From positions 124,001-188,000 of the forward strand of contig JANQPF010000021.1 in the NCBI GenBank assembly GCA_028285415.1: a stretch of DNA of 64,000 nt. Direction: 5' to 3'. The translations under genes were made by a program, and so were the position numbers. The stretch is from Pseudomonadales bacterium (lineage in GTDB: Bacteria > Pseudomonadota > Gammaproteobacteria > Pseudomonadales > Azotimanducaceae). This document shows, piece by piece, positions 49,220 through 56,548 of the stretch (the first letter of the stretch is position 1; every line of letters starts with the position of its first letter). The notes beneath the pieces are model-generated. The model worked only from the letters and a program-made list of their open reading frames with translations, did not search any database and was not told where the DNA came from.

Positions 49220-49858
49220 TCATTCGATCTCCGTTTTCTCTTTGAACTCACAGAGGTCTTCGATGAGGCAGGATCCACAGCGGGGCTTGCGCGCCACGCA
49301 GGTGTAGCGTCCGTGCAGGATGAGCCAGTGATGGGCGTCCTGCTTGTACTCAGCCGGTACAACTTTCAACAGCTTCTGCTCGACCTGATTGACGTTTTTC
49401 CCCTGGGCAATCCGTGTGCGGTTCGACACCCTGAAGATGTGGGTGTCCACGGCGATCGTCGGGTGACCAAACGCGGTGTTGAGAATCACGTTGGCGGTTT
49501 TGCGGCCGACGCCGGGGAGGGCTTCCAGGGCTTCGCGATCCTCGGGCACCTCGCCGTTGTGCTCATCGAGCAGTATCCGGCAGGTTTTGACGACGTTGGT
49601 GGCCTTGGTGTTGAACAGGCCAATCGTCTTGATGTACTCCTTCAGGCGTTTTTCGCCGAGCTTGTGCAGCGCGGCCGGTGTGTTCGCTTTCTTAAAAAGC
49701 GGTCCGGTTGCCTTGTTGACGCTGACGTCGGTGGCCTGGGCCGAGAGAATCACGGCAATCAGAAGCTCAAACGGAGAGCTGTACTCGAGCTCCGTCGTGG
49801 GCTTGGGGTTGGCTGTCTGAAAGCGGGCGAAAATCTGTGCACGTTTGTCGTTGTTCAT
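49220..49858 (-). CDS. nth: Endonuclease III (DNA glycosylase/AP lyase)
   Basis: 212 residues, the same length class as E. coli Nth. Helix-hairpin-helix LPGVGRKTAN with catalytic Lys120, and Asp138 in IAVDTHIFR, at the same numbers as in E. coli. The C-terminal 4Fe-4S loop shows four cysteines (CVARKPRCGSCLIEDLC). Removes oxidised pyrimidines. Its start overlaps the rnfE stop by 4 bp, the usual position of nth at the end of rnf operons. Confidence 0.97.
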   Translation of the reverse strand: MNNDKRAQIFARFQTANPKPTTELEYSSPFELLIAVILSAQATDVSVNKATGPLFKKANTPAALHKLGEKRLKEYIKTIGLFNTKATNVVKTCRILLDEHNGEVPEDREALEALPGVGRKTANVILNTAFGHPTIAVDTHIFRVSNRTRIAQGKNVNQVEQKLLKVVPAEYKQDAHHWLILHGRYTCVARKPRCGSCLIEDLCEFKEKTEIE

Positions 49859-50511
49859 GTGGCGTCCGTATCCGGGGTTGTCGTAGCGGGCCTGGCGCGC
49901 AGGAGGCGATTGCCGAGCGCAAGCAGCAGGCCCGCGACGATGAAAGCGCCGGGGGCCAGCGCCGCCAGCGGCAGCACCTCAAATCCCAGCGAGATTTGCC
50001 AGCCTGCCGCGTGAGTGCCAAAGAGATGCTCTGCGTCGCGCAAGAGCGTCCCATGGGCAAGCACCTCGCGGACGGCGCCGAGTGTCACCAGCGCAAGCGC
50101 AAAGCCTGCTGCCGTTCCGGCGGCGTCAAGAAGGCTCCTGCCGACGGGCTGACGGCTTGCAAACGCTTCAGCGCGCCCGAGGATCATGCAGTTGGTCACG
50201 ATGATCTGCACAAAAAGCGCAATCTTCTCATAGAGACCATAGGCGTACGCCTCGAGAAGCAGCGTTGCCACCGTCGTGAACGTGGCGATGATGAGCACAA
50301 AGCAGGGCAGGCGGGCCATGTCCGGTATCTGTCGGCGAAGCACGGAAATGAGCGTGTTGCTCCCAATCACCACAAATGCCGAAGCTGCGGCGAGTCCCAG
50401 CGCGTTGACGACGCTGTTGCTGACTGCCAGCAGCGGACAGAGGCCCAGCAGCTGCGCCCAGGCTGGATTGCGGGCGATGGCGGCGCTGGCGAAGGTTGAA
50501 TCAGGAACCAC
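49855..50511 (-). CDS. rnfE: Rnf electron transport complex subunit E
   Basis: 218 residues from GTG 50511, overlapping the rnfG stop by 11 bp. Six membrane segments; characteristic LLGLCPLLAVSNSVVNALG at the start, FVQIIVTNCMILGRAEAFASR and a C-terminal membrane helix. Homologous to RnfA; the two form the membrane core with iron-sulfur and electron passage. Overlaps nth (ATGA). Confidence 0.93.
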   Translation of the reverse strand: MVPDSTFASAAIARNPAWAQLLGLCPLLAVSNSVVNALGLAAASAFVVIGSNTLISVLRRQIPDMARLPCFVLIIATFTTVATLLLEAYAYGLYEKIALFVQIIVTNCMILGRAEAFASRQPVGRSLLDAAGTAAGFALALVTLGAVREVLAHGTLLRDAEHLFGTHAAGWQISLGFEVLPLAALAPGAFIVAGLLLALGNRLLRARPATTTPDTDAT

Positions 50512-50995
50512 AGCTCGAGACCTCGCGTTCGAAAATGCCAGCCAGCTCGTCCGCAGCGTGGCGCATGGCGTCGCTGGTGATGGTGGCACCACTGACCGTA
50601 TCCAGTGAACGCCATTCTTTGACGGGCAAGCCGTCGAGCTCAGGTATCCAGCTGCTGCGGGCATGATCGATGAAGTCACCAATGCCCGGGGTCTCACGGT
50701 GCGCCGTCACCCGCAGGCTCAAGGTGCCGCTGCGGTAGAAAGCCAGCAGATCGATGGGTCCAGCGTAGCCGTTCGCCTCGTGGCGGCGGAAGAGCCAGGC
50801 GGGGCAGTCACCAAACTGTGCTGCGTCAGGGTTCATGCCTTCGGGCAGCGCCCTGCCAAGCAGCGCCTCTGCCAGCGCCCGCGCGCGGGCCTGGCGGGCA
50901 TACTCGATGTCGGGCCGCGTCAGCGCATCCGTGGCGACCAGGAGCCCGGCGCAGGCTGCGCCGATGACGACAACGGTCGTGAGCGCGCGAATCAT
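50501..50995 (-). CDS. rnfG: Rnf electron transport complex subunit G (short)
   Basis: 164 residues, clearly shorter than the roughly 200 of typical RnfG. One N-terminal membrane anchor (residues 5-25), then the FMN-binding domain with GIGDF and the covalent flavin attachment motif DTVSGATITS (Thr in SGATIT). The region between anchor and domain is compressed. Overlaps rnfD by 4 bp and rnfE by 11 bp. Confidence 0.9.
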   Translation of the reverse strand: MIRALTTVVVIGAACAGLLVATDALTRPDIEYARQARARALAEALLGRALPEGMNPDAAQFGDCPAWLFRRHEANGYAGPIDLLAFYRSGTLSLRVTAHRETPGIGDFIDHARSSWIPELDGLPVKEWRSLDTVSGATITSDAMRHAADELAGIFEREVSSCGS

Positions 50996-51906
50996 GAGGC
51001 TCTCCGCGCCACCAGCGGCGCTTCATAGCGGTTCATCAACGGTACGAAGGCGTTTGCAAAGAGCACTGCAAAGGCGATGCCGTCGGGGAAGCTGCCGTAG
51101 GCGCGAATCAGATAGATCAGGACGCCAATCATCAGTCCATAGAGGATCTGATTACGCGGCGTACGCGGATGACTCACCGGATCGGTGGCGATGAAGAAGG
51201 CGGCTGCGACGGTGCCGCCGGTTGTCCAGTGGAAGAAGGTCGATCCGAGGCTGGTGGACGAACCCTGGTCGTAGCCGAAAAGTGCTGCAAGCGCGACCCC
51301 GCCCATTACCGCCGCTGGCACGCGCCAGGCGGCAAGGCGCAGGTAAAGGAGTACAAGTCCACCGGCGAGAAAGCAGAAGGCGACAACCCGTTGATCAGCG
51401 CCGGCCTTGGGGTGAGCCGCCACAAACTCGGCCACGGTCAGGCCTTCGCGGTAACGAAACTCGCTCAATAGCGTGGCGCCGCTGAAGCCGTCGACACCGG
51501 CCGGCGCGGGCCAGTGTGCCAGCGCTTCGGGAAAGGACACCATGACCACTGCGTAGCCGACCATCGCCGGATTGAAGACGTTCTGACCGAGCCCGCCGTA
51601 GACGTGTTTGCCGAGCCCGAGTGCCGCCAGTGCAGCAAGTGCCAGAATGCCGGGCGCCACATAGGGCGGCAGACAGATGGCAATGAGCCAGCCGGTGAGG
51701 AGCGCGCTCAGATCTTTGAGGTGAAAGCTGATGTCTCTGAGGCTGCGTGTCCCAGCTGCGAGGAGAAACACCGCCTCCGCGATGAGCGCAAAACCGCTCA
51801 TCCACGCCAGATTCCAGAGCACGCCGAAGCCCCACACCGAGACCATTGCGGCGACTCCCGGAACGAGGGCGGCGAGCACAATCAGCATGATCCGCGACGT
51901 GCTCAT
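50992..51906 (-). CDS. rnfD: Rnf electron transport complex subunit D
   Basis: 304 residues from ATG 51906, chosen because it forms the ATGA overlap with the rnfB stop used throughout this operon; an in-frame ATG at 51912 is possible. Nine or so membrane segments, [21 protein letters not shown], and the covalent FMN site [14 protein letters not shown]. Carries flavin and, with A and E, the ion-pumping core. Confidence 0.93.
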
Positions 51907-52793
51907 GTCCATGAGCGTGTGCCCTTTTGTTTCAATCTGGCGCTGCGCCTGGATTCAGCGCTGGCGGCGTGTTCAGCATGGCGGGCAGCATGGGCGTCGT
52001 AACGCTGCTTGAAACGCCGGCGCGAGGCGTCCTCCGCGGCAGCAAGGGTCAGCTCGCGCTTGTGCGTCGAAAACTCGGCTGCCAGGTTGATGCCGCTGGG
52101 GCAGGCGCGGTCGCAGAGTCCGCATTCGATGCAGTTGCCGAGACCCTGGTCGCGGGCAGTTTCGAGGTGGCCCTGGCGCACATTCTGAATGAGGCTCATG
52201 ACCGGCAGCTCCACGGGGCAGACCGGATCGCAACGGCTGCATTTGATGCACGCACGCAGCGGCACCGCCAGGACTGGTTTCGGTGGCTCACGCCGCCGTG
52301 CGGGTGCGGCCACGTCAATCATCTCGATGCAATCCACCGGGCAGGGCGCAACGCAGAGCTCACAACCGGTGCACTCGTCGGTGATGACCGTGTGCATATA
52401 GTTTGGCGCGCCGACAATGGCGTCGACCGGGCAGGCGGGCAGGCAGAGTGTGCAGCCTATGCATTCTGTTTCATCAATGACGGCAAGCTTGACGGGCGTG
52501 GGTGCTGGCGGCACGCCGCCGGACGCGCCCATCAGACGCTGCAGCTCGGCGTGGGTTGCCGCGCCGCCGGGTGGGCAGAGATCCAATGCCGCCGCGCCGC
52601 CTGCGACCGCCTCCGCGTAGGGCCGGCAACCGGGATAGCCGCACTGCGCGCACTGGGTCTGCGGGAGTGTTGCGTCGATCGCATCGACGAGGGGGCTTGC
52701 ATTGCGCGGGTAACGTCGGCCGAGTGCAAGGAACGCCACGGCGAATATGAGCAACGTGCCAATCAGCAGGAGCGGCGTTGCGACAGCGTTCAC
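51903..52793 (-). CDS. rnfB: RnfB fused to an RnfC-like C-terminal ferredoxin domain
   Basis: 296 residues versus about 190 for E. coli RsxB. Residues 1-170 are ordinary RnfB: membrane anchor, cluster motif CAQCGYPGC...C (Cys48, 51, 56, 73), then two 4Fe-4S motifs (Cys111-121, Cys141-151). Residues 180-235 add two more: [12 protein letters not shown] and [15 protein letters not shown], then a basic Ala/Arg helical tail (to 296). CIECG.C...CPS.I and the tail are hallmarks of the RnfC C-terminus. No rnfC gene lies between this gene and rnfD, which overlap by 4 bp. Fusion and loss are therefore read directly from the layout; the functional consequence is inference. Confidence 0.9.
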
Positions 52794-53368
52794 CCGGCCA
52801 GCCCCGTCAATCCCATGAATGCGAGGCTCATGATGCCCGCGCTGATCAGCGCAATGGGCGCGCCGCGGAACGGCGCAGGAATGCCCTCATGATCGAGCGT
52901 CTCGCGCATCGCGCCGAAGAGCACCATCACGAGTGTAAACCCACCGGCGGCGCCGATGCTGAAGACGAGCGTCTCCAGGAGGCTCAGATCCTGGCTGGTG
53001 GCCAGGAGCGCCACGCCCAGCACCGCGCAGTTACTGGTAATGAGCGGCAGATAGATGCCAAGCATCTGATGCAGCACCACGGAGGTGGCTTCTATGTAGC
53101 GGGAAACAAGCTGCACGACACCTGCGATTACCACGATGAAAAGGATGATGCGCAGGTACTCGAGCTCGAGCGGGACGAGCACGCCGTGATAGACGAGGTG
53201 CGCAATGACCGCGGCAAGCGTCAGCACAAACGTGGTTGCGACTCCGGTGGCAAGCGCGGTGTCGTAACCCCGGGTGATGCCCATGAACGGGCAGAGACCG
53301 AGGAACTGGGCCAGGACAAAATTGTTGACCAGCAGCGCGCCGATCAGAAGCAGCGCTAGATCAGCCAT
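52790..53368 (-). CDS. rnfA: Rnf electron transport complex subunit A
   Basis: 192 residues, as in other Rnf complexes. Six membrane segments; [18 protein letters not shown] near the start and [15 protein letters not shown] with the conserved cysteine. First gene of the operon, overlapping rnfB by 4 bp and 27 bp from the metG stop, so it may be read with metG. Confidence 0.95.
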
Positions 53369-53395: not shown

Positions 53396-55411
53396 CTAGC
53401 GCACGTCCATGCCGGGCTCAGCACCGCTGTCGGGACTCAGGAGGAAAATGTCTTTTCCGCCGGGACCCGCGGCCAGCACCATGCCCTCGGAGACGCCGAA
53501 GCGCATTTTGCGTGGCGCGAGATTGGCGACGACAACCGTGAGCTTGCCGACGAGATCTGCCGGATCGTACGCCTCGCGTATGCCGGAGAAAACCTGGCGC
53601 TCATGGTCGCCCACGTCCAGGGTCAGCTGCAGGAGCTTGTCCGCGCCGTCCACGAGCTCAGCGGCGACAATTTTTGCAACCTTGAGCTCAACCTTCGCAA
53701 AGTCGTCGATGTTGATGAACTCATCGTCAGCAGCCGGTGCATCGCCGTCTGCCGTCGTCGCCTCGGAAGGCGCTTCTGCAGACGCTGCAACCAGCTTGTC
53801 GACGGTTTTCATCTCCATGCGCGCGAGCATGGCTTTGAACTTGGCGATGGTGTGTCCCAGGAGTGGTGTCTGTGCATCCGCCCACGTGAGCGGCTCAACC
53901 TGCAGGAAAGCCTCGGTCTTGGCCGCCATCTCCGGCAGGATCGGTTTCAGGTAAATCGCGAGCACGCGGAACATGTTGATGGCCTGGCTGCAGACGAGCT
54001 GCACATCCTCGCGCCGTTCCGGGTCTTTGTTGAGGTTCCACGGTTCGTGCTGGGCAATGTACTGATTGGCGAGATCGGCAAGCGCCGTGATCTCTCTGAC
54101 CGCTTTGCTCGTATCGTCCGCTTCGTAGTACTCGGCGATCGCCTCGCTCTGTGCAGTGAATTTCTGCCACAGCTCGCCGTCGTGCATGGTGTCGGCCAGC
54201 TTGCCGTCGAAGCCCTTGACCAGGAATCCGGCGCAGCGGCTGGCAATGTTGATGACCTTGCCAACGAGGTCCGAATTGACGCGCTGCACGAAGTCTTCCA
54301 GATTGATGTCGACGTCGTCGGCAGTGCCGTTCAGTTTGGTGGCGTAGTAGTAGCGCAGGTACTCGGGATCGAGATAGTCGAGGTAGTCGTTTGCCAGAAT
54401 GAAGGTGCCGCGGCTCTTCGACATTTTTGTGCCGTTCACAGTGATGAAGCCGTGGGTGTGAATGCGCGTAGGCGTGCGGAAACCGGCACCGTCCAGCACC
54501 GCCGGCCAGAAGAGCGCGTGGAAGTTGATGATGTCCTTGCCGATGAAGTGATGCACTTCGTACTCACTCTCAGGTTGCCAGAAATCGTCGAACTGCATGT
54601 CGTTTCTCTGATCACAGAACTTCTGGAAGCTCGCCATGTAGCCGATGGGGGCATCCATCCACACGTAGAAGTACTTGTCAGTGGTGCCCGGAATGACAAA
54701 GCCGAAGTAGGGGGCATCGCGGGAGATGTCCCAGGCTTTGAGCCCGCCGTCGAGCCACTCAGCGAGCTTGTTGGCTATCTCCGGCTGCACCGCGCCGGAA
54801 CGGGTCCACTTCTTGAGGAAGTCGGTGTACTGGGGCAGATCGAAGAAATAGTGCTCTGATGCCTTCAGCTCGGGGGTGGCGCCGGAATAGACCGACTTCG
54901 GGTTTTTGAGATCCGTCGCATCGTAGGTGGCGCCGCAGACTTCGCAGTTGTCGCCGTATTGACCCGCAGCGCCGCAGTTCGGACATTCGCCCACGACGAA
55001 GCGGTCCGCGAGAAAAAGCTTCTTTTCGGGGTCGTAGAGCTGCTCGACTTCGCGGGTGAAGATGAGACCGCGCGCCTGCAGGCGTTCATAGATGAGCTCG
55101 GAGAAATGCCGGTTTTCATCGGAATGGGTCGAGTAGTAGTTATCGTGGCTGACTAAGAAGCGCTCGAAATCGCTGACGTGATCTCTGCGCACCGCTTCGA
55201 TCAGCTGCTCGGGCGCCACGCCGTCTTCTTCCGCGCGAATCATGGTGGCCGTGCCGTGCGTGTCGTCGGCGCAGACGTAGACAACCTGGTGACCGCGCAT
55301 GCGCTGAAAGCGCACCCAGATGTCGGTCTGGACGTGCTCATACATATGGCCAAGGTGAATTGGTCCATTGGCGTTGGGCAGCGCGCTGGTCACAAGAATG
55401 TTACGAGTCAT
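53396..55411 (-). CDS. metG: Methionyl-tRNA synthetase
   Basis: 671 residues from ATG 55411. HIGH motif [10 protein letters not shown], zinc knuckle CPNCG...CEVCG, KMSKS loop GTKMSKSRG, and a C-terminal tRNA-binding (EMAP/Trbp111) domain from about 565 ([17 protein letters not shown]). Between catalytic and tRNA-binding parts lies an Ala/Asp/Glu-rich linker. Charges initiator and elongator tRNA-Met. Divergent from mrp and upstream of rnf, the Pseudomonas order. Confidence 0.97.
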
Positions 55412-55534
55412 ACCCGCTCTCAAATCCGCGTGGTGGCAAAAGGGCGCTAATTCTACCCATAGGTACCGGCAGAAAATAGGCAGATTGGTGCGCACCCACT
55501 TATACTGGGCGGCTTTCTCCAACCCTGAGCAGAC

Positions 55535-56548
55535 ATGAAAGTCGAAGATTTTGTAGACCCTTACCTCGGCAAAACCTGGGGCCAGCTGGGCGCACGGGTG
55601 CTCACCAGCGGCAGGCAGGTGGCCGTCACCCTCGGCTACCCGGCTGCGGGTATGCAGGCTGAGCTGACCGAGGCATTGTCGGCGCACCTGGGCGGCGCCG
55701 AGGTAGAGCTGGAACTCGCCTTCAGCGCGCCGCGCGGCCGCGGCTTCGGCCAGGTCAAGCACATCATCGCCGTGGCCTCGGGTAAAGGCGGCGTCGGCAA
55801 ATCGACCACCGCCGTGAACCTGGCGCTGGCGCTCGATGCCGAAGGGGCCAAAGTTGGCCTCCTCGACGCCGACATCTACGGCCCGAGCCAGGGCATGATG
55901 CTAGGCGTCGACGAAGGTCGCCGGCCCGCGATCAAGGACGGCAAGTTCTTCGAACCCATTCGCGCCCACGGTCTCAAAGCCATGTCCATGAGCTTCATGG
56001 TGACCGACTCGACACCCATGGTCTGGCGTGGCCCGATGGCGTCCGGCGCGTTGCAGCAGATCCTCACCCAGACCCTGTGGGACGACCTCGACTACCTCAT
56101 TGTGGATATGCCGCCGGGCACCGGTGACATACAGCTGACGCTCTCTCAGAAAGTGCCGGTCGCGGGTGCGGTCATTGTCACGACGCCGCAGGACATTGCG
56201 CTCCTGGATGCGGTCAAAGGCATTGAGATGTTCGCCAAGGTGGACATCCCCGTGCTCGGCATCATCGAGAACATGAGCGTGCACTGCTGTCCGAACTGCG
56301 GTCATGTCAGCCATCTGTTTGGCGAAGGCGGCGGTACCCGCGTGGCGACGGAGCTGGGTGTGCCGCTGCTCGGCGAGCTGCCGCTGGCCATGGAGATCCG
56401 CGAGCAGGCCGACAGCGGCAAGCCGACGGTGCGTGCCGATCCGGAATCCGAGGTGAGCGCCATCTACCGTAAAGCCGCCCGCCATATGGCGGCGCGACTG
56501 TGGGATCAGGAGCAGGCGGCGCCGACCATACGGATGGTGGACGACTGA
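55535..56548 (+). CDS. mrp: Mrp/ApbC-type iron-sulfur cluster carrier ATPase
   Basis: 337 residues. N-terminal MIP18-like part (residues 1-75), then a MinD/Mrp ATPase: deviant Walker [25 protein letters not shown], and a CxxC in [12 protein letters not shown] for 4Fe-4S binding. Loads or transfers Fe-S clusters in the cytoplasm. Divergent from metG, upstream of dcd. Confidence 0.95.

Follow-up and report, generated by a model that had tools for sequence, protein, structure and literature searches.

The window, a 64-kb stretch of DNA, carries an rnf operon in the order metG-rnfA-B-D-G-E-nth with all genes on the minus strand (Table 1). The ORF coordinates agree with the first-pass annotation, which had read an A-B-D-G-E-nth order with overlaps of 4 to 11 bp and no rnfC. 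From rnfA to nth, the successive overlaps are 4, 10, 4, 11, and 4 bp, and therefore there is no space for rnfC. All five Rnf subunits (A, B, D, G, and E) were recognized by NCBIfam and Pfam models. RnfB scored 190.5 bits against TIGR01944 (cut-off 68.7) and has the N-terminal transmembrane helix, the FeS domain, and the two [4Fe-4S] clusters of that family, with scores below the equivalog cut-offs. RnfG was below its subfamily cut-off (59.8 vs 102 bits). The window's RnfD has no N-terminal extension. The FMN/NAD(H)-binding and SLBB part of RnfC is absent; its 2x[4Fe-4S] domain is present but fused to RnfB. Neither NqrA nor NqrF is encoded in the operon; the genome has a separate nqrA, on contig C11.

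Table 1. Features of the rnf locus, in positions of the 64-kb window.
Feature	Coordinates	Strand	Description
metG	53396..55762	minus	listed ORF, true start probably downstream; upstream neighbor in mapped genus loci
rnfA	52790..53368	minus	192 aa; membrane [2Fe-2S] cysteines present
rnfB-rnfC fusion gene	51903..52793	minus	GTG start, 296 aa; TM helix, FeS domain, 2x[4Fe-4S] plus RnfC-derived 2x[4Fe-4S] and basic C-terminal helix
RnfC-derived tail, ~residues 181-296	51906..52253	minus	Fe-S motifs C182-C192 and C221-C231; modeled helix 237-295
rnfD	50992..51912	minus	306 aa; FMN-attachment Thr in SGAT (144-147)
rnfG	50501..50995	minus	164 aa; FMN-attachment Thr in SGAT (135-138)
rnfE	49855..50511	minus	~218 aa, start read as GTG at 50511 (mechanical ORF opens at 50697); membrane [2Fe-2S] cysteines present
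nth, endonuclease III	49220..49858	minus	rnf-linked, as in many mapped relatives

The RnfB of the window is an ordinary RnfB up to about residue 163. Beyond this point, residues 179–289 match positions 366–476 of 556 in the RsxC profile NF003454 (64.9 bits), and residues 178–248 match positions 361–431 of 435 in the rnfC profile TIGR01945 (54 bits). The extra Fe-S motifs start at C182 and C221, and the eight tail cysteines are invariant in 18/18 aligned proteins. A PDB sequence search with the tail alone gave RnfC of Azotobacter vinelandii Rnf1 as the best match (8ahx_C, E 7e-9), with tail residues 17–126 aligned to RnfC residues 369–478 across the clusters and the helix. The RnfC of A. woodii (9eri_C) was second at E 7e-7, with other two-cluster proteins only slightly weaker, starting at E 9e-7. 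A model of the RnfC Fe-S domain built from 37 separate RnfCs outscored an RnfB-dicluster model built from 38 short RnfBs in 42/42 tails, with medians of 83.5 vs 17.5 bits (L078 and L182 are identical in sequence, so the 42 tails are 41 distinct ones, and the RnfA count below also includes that sequence twice). A duplicated RnfB ferredoxin is ruled out by the RnfC-first PDB matches together with these scores. By these comparisons, the tail is the ferredoxin-plus-helix end of RnfC and not a copied RnfB ferredoxin. The earlier description of a 296-residue RnfB with two additional 4Fe-4S motifs and a basic C-terminal helix, which in standard complexes belong to RnfC, is thus upheld, and the profile comparison with RnfC C-termini that it had proposed came out in favor of RnfC over the RnfB dicluster.

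An AlphaFold2 model of the window's RnfB (28 rows) is confident in the tail (block mean pLDDT 85–98), which ends in a 59-residue helix at 237–295; the dicluster is poorly modeled, with residues 114–153 weak. A C-terminal helix of more than 50 residues is described for A. vinelandii RnfC in passages of PMC12174285. In the PDB, Foldseek put A. woodii RnfB first (E 5e-4) and A. woodii RnfC second (E 7e-3, 76 columns aligned at rmsd 2.2) among the matches of the modeled RnfB; global TM-scores against PDB RnfB and RnfC were low, at ~0.25. The linker between the RnfB part and the tail is at least 23 residues long. Against a model of the RnfC helix, seven other fused helices scored 18.1–63.5 bits and the window helix only 11.7 bits; therefore, the evidence for the helix is weaker than that for the Fe-S domain.

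We searched the rest of the window's genome (5.97 Mb, 99% complete) for RnfC. PF13375 (RnfC_N) gave nothing over cut-off, and the best of its eight matches was NqrA at 18.3 bits. The single PF01512 match (12.4 bits) was a GGDEF-like protein, and the single PF10531 match was a polysaccharide-export-lipoprotein-like protein (both named by eye) rather than an RnfC-type SLBB protein. On examination, we rejected each of these three matches as an RnfC encoded elsewhere. RnfC_N can miss divergent RnfCs, as in genome G349, where RnfC is found by tblastn, so a second line of search with the fused RnfB as the query matters. The full-length query finds the C-terminus of a separate RnfC in 20/21 genomes of other families (the exception is G044), and it matched nothing RnfC-like in the window's genome. 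Strong RnfC_N matches (at least 64 bits) occur in 19/21 of the other-family genomes vs 0/37 genomes of the window's genus. Weak matches over cut-off, at no more than 28.9 bits, occur in five genus genomes (G036, G028, G010, G025, and G006, with neighbors). In 15 further fused genomes, no RnfC_N match exceeded 33.3 bits, and the matches over cut-off fell in frames of 449–481 aa (the size of NqrA) or 1574 aa. The first-pass annotation had noted that the N-terminal NAD(H)/FMN and SLBB part of RnfC is missing, and this is the case at the locus and, by these searches, across the genome. It had also allowed for an RnfC-like flavoprotein encoded elsewhere, and none was found with PF13375, PF01512, PF10531, or the fused-RnfB query; at the level of sequence similarity, neither an RnfC- nor a NuoF-type protein was detected elsewhere in this genome.

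The full fused RnfB is present in 25 of the 37 genus genomes (in G006 as two pieces of one frame), a truncated match is seen in G031, and the remaining 11 have no RnfB match better than E 1e-30, five of these being at least 90% complete. Genome G075 adds one more, for 26 fused genomes in the genus, across which the fused RnfB persists at 45–55% identity. We mapped the direct B-to-D order without rnfC in 20 of the 26 (the window, L032–L048, L051, and L162); L049 and L050 stop at a contig edge, and four genomes were outside the mapping. One subgroup of the genus has a 180-aa gene, unnamed by our searches, between rnfE and nth (L035:4410-4952, L039:4982-5524).

In wider samples, the fused form occurs in 11/390 genomes of an order-wide set, three of them the genus, in 7/369 genomes class-wide, including the window's own, and in 2/398 phylum-wide, namely the window's own and another of the same class; the class- and phylum-wide counts took matches no weaker than E 1e-69 and could miss fused forms that are short or diverged. 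A scan of named genomes gave nine fused loci (L072–L080) among the best 80 of 591, including MAGs labeled “K189A clade” (L072, probably the window's genus), Chromatiales (L076), and Pseudomonadales (L080). Among the same best 80, a simple tblastn rule places an rnfC match downstream in 66 of the 71 loci with a short RnfB, and 1.5–2.6 kb separate B and D in the other five. The full rnfC that the first-pass annotation gave for the Pseudomonas block was seen in one record (L112, Pseudomonas sp. 21), directly after rnfB and spanning residues 10–605. The proposal of a lineage-specific rebuild did not hold, as the fused form recurs on several distant gammaproteobacterial branches. Another reduced Rnf was seen at L071:3999-6873, which reads metG-rnfB(151 aa)-rnfD-(rnfG-like match)-nth, with no match to rnfA, rnfC, or rnfE.

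To follow the history of the fusion, we used a tree of RnfA, the RnfB core, RnfD, and RnfE (67 rows, 33 of them fused), with branch support from SH-aLRT only; it leaves out the duplicates L072, L074, and L184 as well as 13 loci for which RnfA or RnfD had not been extracted. The tree has six changes of state, of which at least five are forced by starred branches. Placing all fused rows in one clade was rejected (p-AU 2e-93), as was a single clade of the 26 fused rows of the family f1 type (p 0.0004), both on quick trees. A tail-only tree forces just two changes and has too few columns to count origins. Because the larger tree is made from the operon's own genes, host-to-host transfer alone does not account for the pattern.

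The number of changes by itself cannot separate gain from loss. The direction is clear in one genus (f15), where three fused genomes are nested within separate ones. Their fused RnfBs are 82–84% identical to the RnfB of the sister locus L173 and then continue in frame as the L173 RnfC, from residue 355 or 359 to 489, at 79–84% identity. As read from these alignments, the fused form arose from the separate one when an in-frame deletion joined the neighboring genes rnfB and rnfC. We infer the same route for the window's lineage. In its ancestor, an in-frame deletion would have taken the last codons of rnfB together with ~350 codons from the start of the neighboring rnfC, and the two-cluster ferredoxin domain and C-terminal helix of RnfC would thereby have become the RnfB tail. 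Among these separate RnfCs, only that of L173, the locus closest to the f15 fusions, shows a clear change in the FMN motif, to GLSGASFPSLKR. A gradual decay, with an NADH-dead RnfC in the sister genera of the window's family, was considered and rejected, as the alignment shows that L163–L166 largely keep the GLGG[AG]-PT--K-like and ECE motifs.

The dN/dS of the Fe-S tail is 0.016–0.154 in 10/13 pairs, like that of the RnfB core; the other three pairs gave 0 and 0.41, with few changes each, and one ratio that was not computable. The helix is laxer, at 0.12–0.64 across the 10 pairs that gave a ratio, and the linker laxer still, at up to 1.1. Some dS values exceed 1, so all of these ratios are rough. 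Judging from the codon comparisons, the fused ferredoxin is under purifying selection.

The residues of the electron path are also largely conserved. The FMN-attachment Thr of RnfG ([ST]GAT) is kept in 29/29 fused loci holding the gene by alignment (17/29 by a strict regular expression), and that of RnfD in 32/34, with one truncated and one lost. Both RnfA cysteines are kept in 38/40 fused loci and both RnfE cysteines in 28/29. The exceptions are L161, where RnfG was not found and the RnfE cysteines are lost, L183, where the first RnfA cysteine is His and no rnfG or rnfE match precedes nth, and L185, with the same RnfA change. In L183 and L185, a 395-aa gene follows the fused rnfB, and in L183, it lies between rnfB and rnfD. 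We considered a flavoprotein at this position and rejected it, as the gene reads ATPase-like by eye. In all other fused operons mapped with both genes, including the window, no gene lies between B and D. Two further loci are more reduced. L186:2397-3302 has a fused RnfB followed by nth, with no further rnf match in an 8-kb stretch, and L196:3049-5430 has a fused RnfB (354-aa frame) beside an RnfD at 27% identity, with no match to rnfA, rnfG, rnfE, or nth within 9 kb. The fused RnfB thus survives beside decayed or absent rnf genes in L186, L196, L161, L183, and L185, and the tail may therefore work without the pump. A shortened RnfD was rejected as a mark of RnfC loss, since sisters with a separate RnfC also have a short one.

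Rnf is defined as a ferredoxin:NAD+ oxidoreductase. The window shares homologs of A, B, D, G, and E and their cofactor residues with the RnfABCDGE complexes of A. vinelandii (Rnf1), A. woodii, and C. tetanomorphum, as well as the proteobacterial gene order save C, and its tail is homologous to the RnfC ferredoxin domain and helix. Unlike those systems, it has no FMN/NAD(H) and SLBB part of RnfC, and the ferredoxin end of RnfC sits on RnfB. Since the NAD(H) part is absent, the complex is not a strict RnfABCDGE member; it appears to be a new form, likely to operate as Rnf does but with a different partner. The well-studied gammaproteobacterial relative, E. coli Rsx (RsxABCDGE), has the same order and the same link to nth, but with a 741-aa RsxC in the record used, and the fused form is without SoxR as a general companion. 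Na+-NQR has a membrane core homologous to that of Rnf and has also lost the RnfC redox cofactors, according to passages of PMC12174285. It keeps a cofactor-free NqrA, gained NqrF, and lost RnfB, whereas the window's system keeps RnfB.

A further relative is the long RsxB of NF005415, which in the two members read has an RnfB core with an RnfC-like C-terminal helix and no extra Fe-S pair. Window RnfB scores 191.9 bits against this model, below its cut-off of 281, and matches over cut-off occur in 2/369 class genomes and in 0/38 in another search. The two long RsxB loci are L208:1492-2157 and L209:1327-2184. Against the RnfC-helix model, these two members scored 17.4 and 19.8 bits, values reached by 0/200 shuffles each, vs at most 0.7 bits or no match for the C-termini of six separate RnfBs. 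This suggests a series from a separate RnfC, through a fused ferredoxin plus helix, to the helix only. A helix-only RsxB also makes it less certain that the tail has to serve the pump.

In solved Rnf complexes, as set out in parts of PMC11889175 and PMC12174285, electrons follow a U-shaped path from RnfB through the RnfA/RnfE [2Fe-2S] cluster, the RnfG FMN, and the RnfD flavins to the two RnfC clusters, FMN, and NAD, and the C-terminal helix of RnfC binds RnfB. The gap between the RnfB and RnfC clusters is more than 30 Å in A. woodii, by the structural account in PMC11889175. In the window, the residues for the rest of the path are present, so that the RnfB clusters, the RnfA/RnfE [2Fe-2S], the RnfG FMN, and the RnfD FMN/riboflavin are presumably all in place. 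By analogy with RnfC, the tail most likely still sits above RnfD, where the RnfC ferredoxin domain sits in solved complexes, and the linker would be long enough to span a gap of this size and let it stay there. The tail would then close the U-shaped path as an open port. Since all is present through the two RnfC clusters and the FMN/NAD(H) part is gone, a one-electron port is expected, and it would exchange single electrons with ferredoxin, flavodoxin, or a similar protein instead of FMN/NAD(H). A donor other than NAD(H) would feed the complex. The reading we lean toward, with modest confidence, is an NAD-free Rnf variant (RnfA-B*-D-G-E) from which the FMN/NAD(H) module is gone and which exchanges electrons with small carriers at both cytoplasmic ports. 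More speculatively, such a pump would probably draw on the ion gradient to drive electrons from one carrier to a ferredoxin that is a stronger reductant, and NADH oxidation in the organism could fall to Na+-NQR, given the nqrA seen.

The most serious alternative, which we nevertheless consider unlikely, is that the tail is an added length of RnfB's ferredoxin-docking wire, of the kind seen in polyferredoxin-type RnfBs, with the RnfD electrons leaving in some other way, or that the fused RnfB is a stand-alone carrier. The persistence of the fused RnfB in L186, L196, L161, and L183, where the complex is missing or decayed, fits this, as does the retention of only an RnfC-like helix on the NF005415 RsxB, and passages of PMC11889175 on A. 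woodii suggest that RnfB has a basic “fishing hook” for ferredoxin at its C-terminus. However, most fused operons retain the residues of the electron path as far as RnfD, so an exit near RnfD is needed. The quinone-site helices of NqrB are not present in RnfD, as described in part of PMC12174285, and the window's RnfD has no N-terminal extension. It is considerably less probable that an unlinked NADH-oxidizing flavoprotein, not recognizably related to RnfC, docks on the tail and keeps the complex linked to NAD(H). Such a protein would be beyond the reach of homology searches, and PF13375 already misses divergent RnfCs such as that of G349, but the genome has no RnfC_N or Complex1_51K match over cut-off and no RnfC-type SLBB protein, and neither the window nor any fused operon mapped with both genes, other than L183, has a gene between B and D.

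SoxR reduction is the role ascribed to E. coli Rsx in passages of PMC12174285, and the window's genome has a SoxR over cut-off. A SoxR-reducing system adapted to work without NADH is still very improbable as a common role, since SoxR is found over cut-off in only 8/19 genus fused genomes (one with an in-frame stop) and in 0/13 other fused genomes. We give least credence of all to an operon decaying toward loss with the fusion as a passive remnant. Decay is indeed seen in L161, L183, L185, L186, and L196, and 11 of the 37 genus genomes have no RnfB match at the threshold given above, but purifying selection on the tail, the 18/18 invariance of its cysteines, and its genus-wide persistence all argue against a remnant.

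In open-access PMC literature, including passages of PMC4014512, PMC11889175, and PMC12174285, we found no report of an RnfB-RnfC fusion or of an RnfC-less Rnf; subscription papers and preprints were outside this scope. More tentatively still, at slightly under an even chance, we propose that deletion of the NAD(H) module alone has repeatedly made Rnf into an ion-coupled pump that is independent of NAD and runs between two small one-electron carriers; if so, the RnfC ferredoxin domain would be shown to be a separable electron port. For annotation, the fusion is a warning that the last piece of RnfC left in a genome can sit in a gene scored as RnfB and nothing more. A recurrent form that is free of the NAD(H) module and has a selected ferredoxin end is a natural experiment on which Rnf parts carry function, and with it, the question of what Rnf does in gammaproteobacteria becomes more testable.
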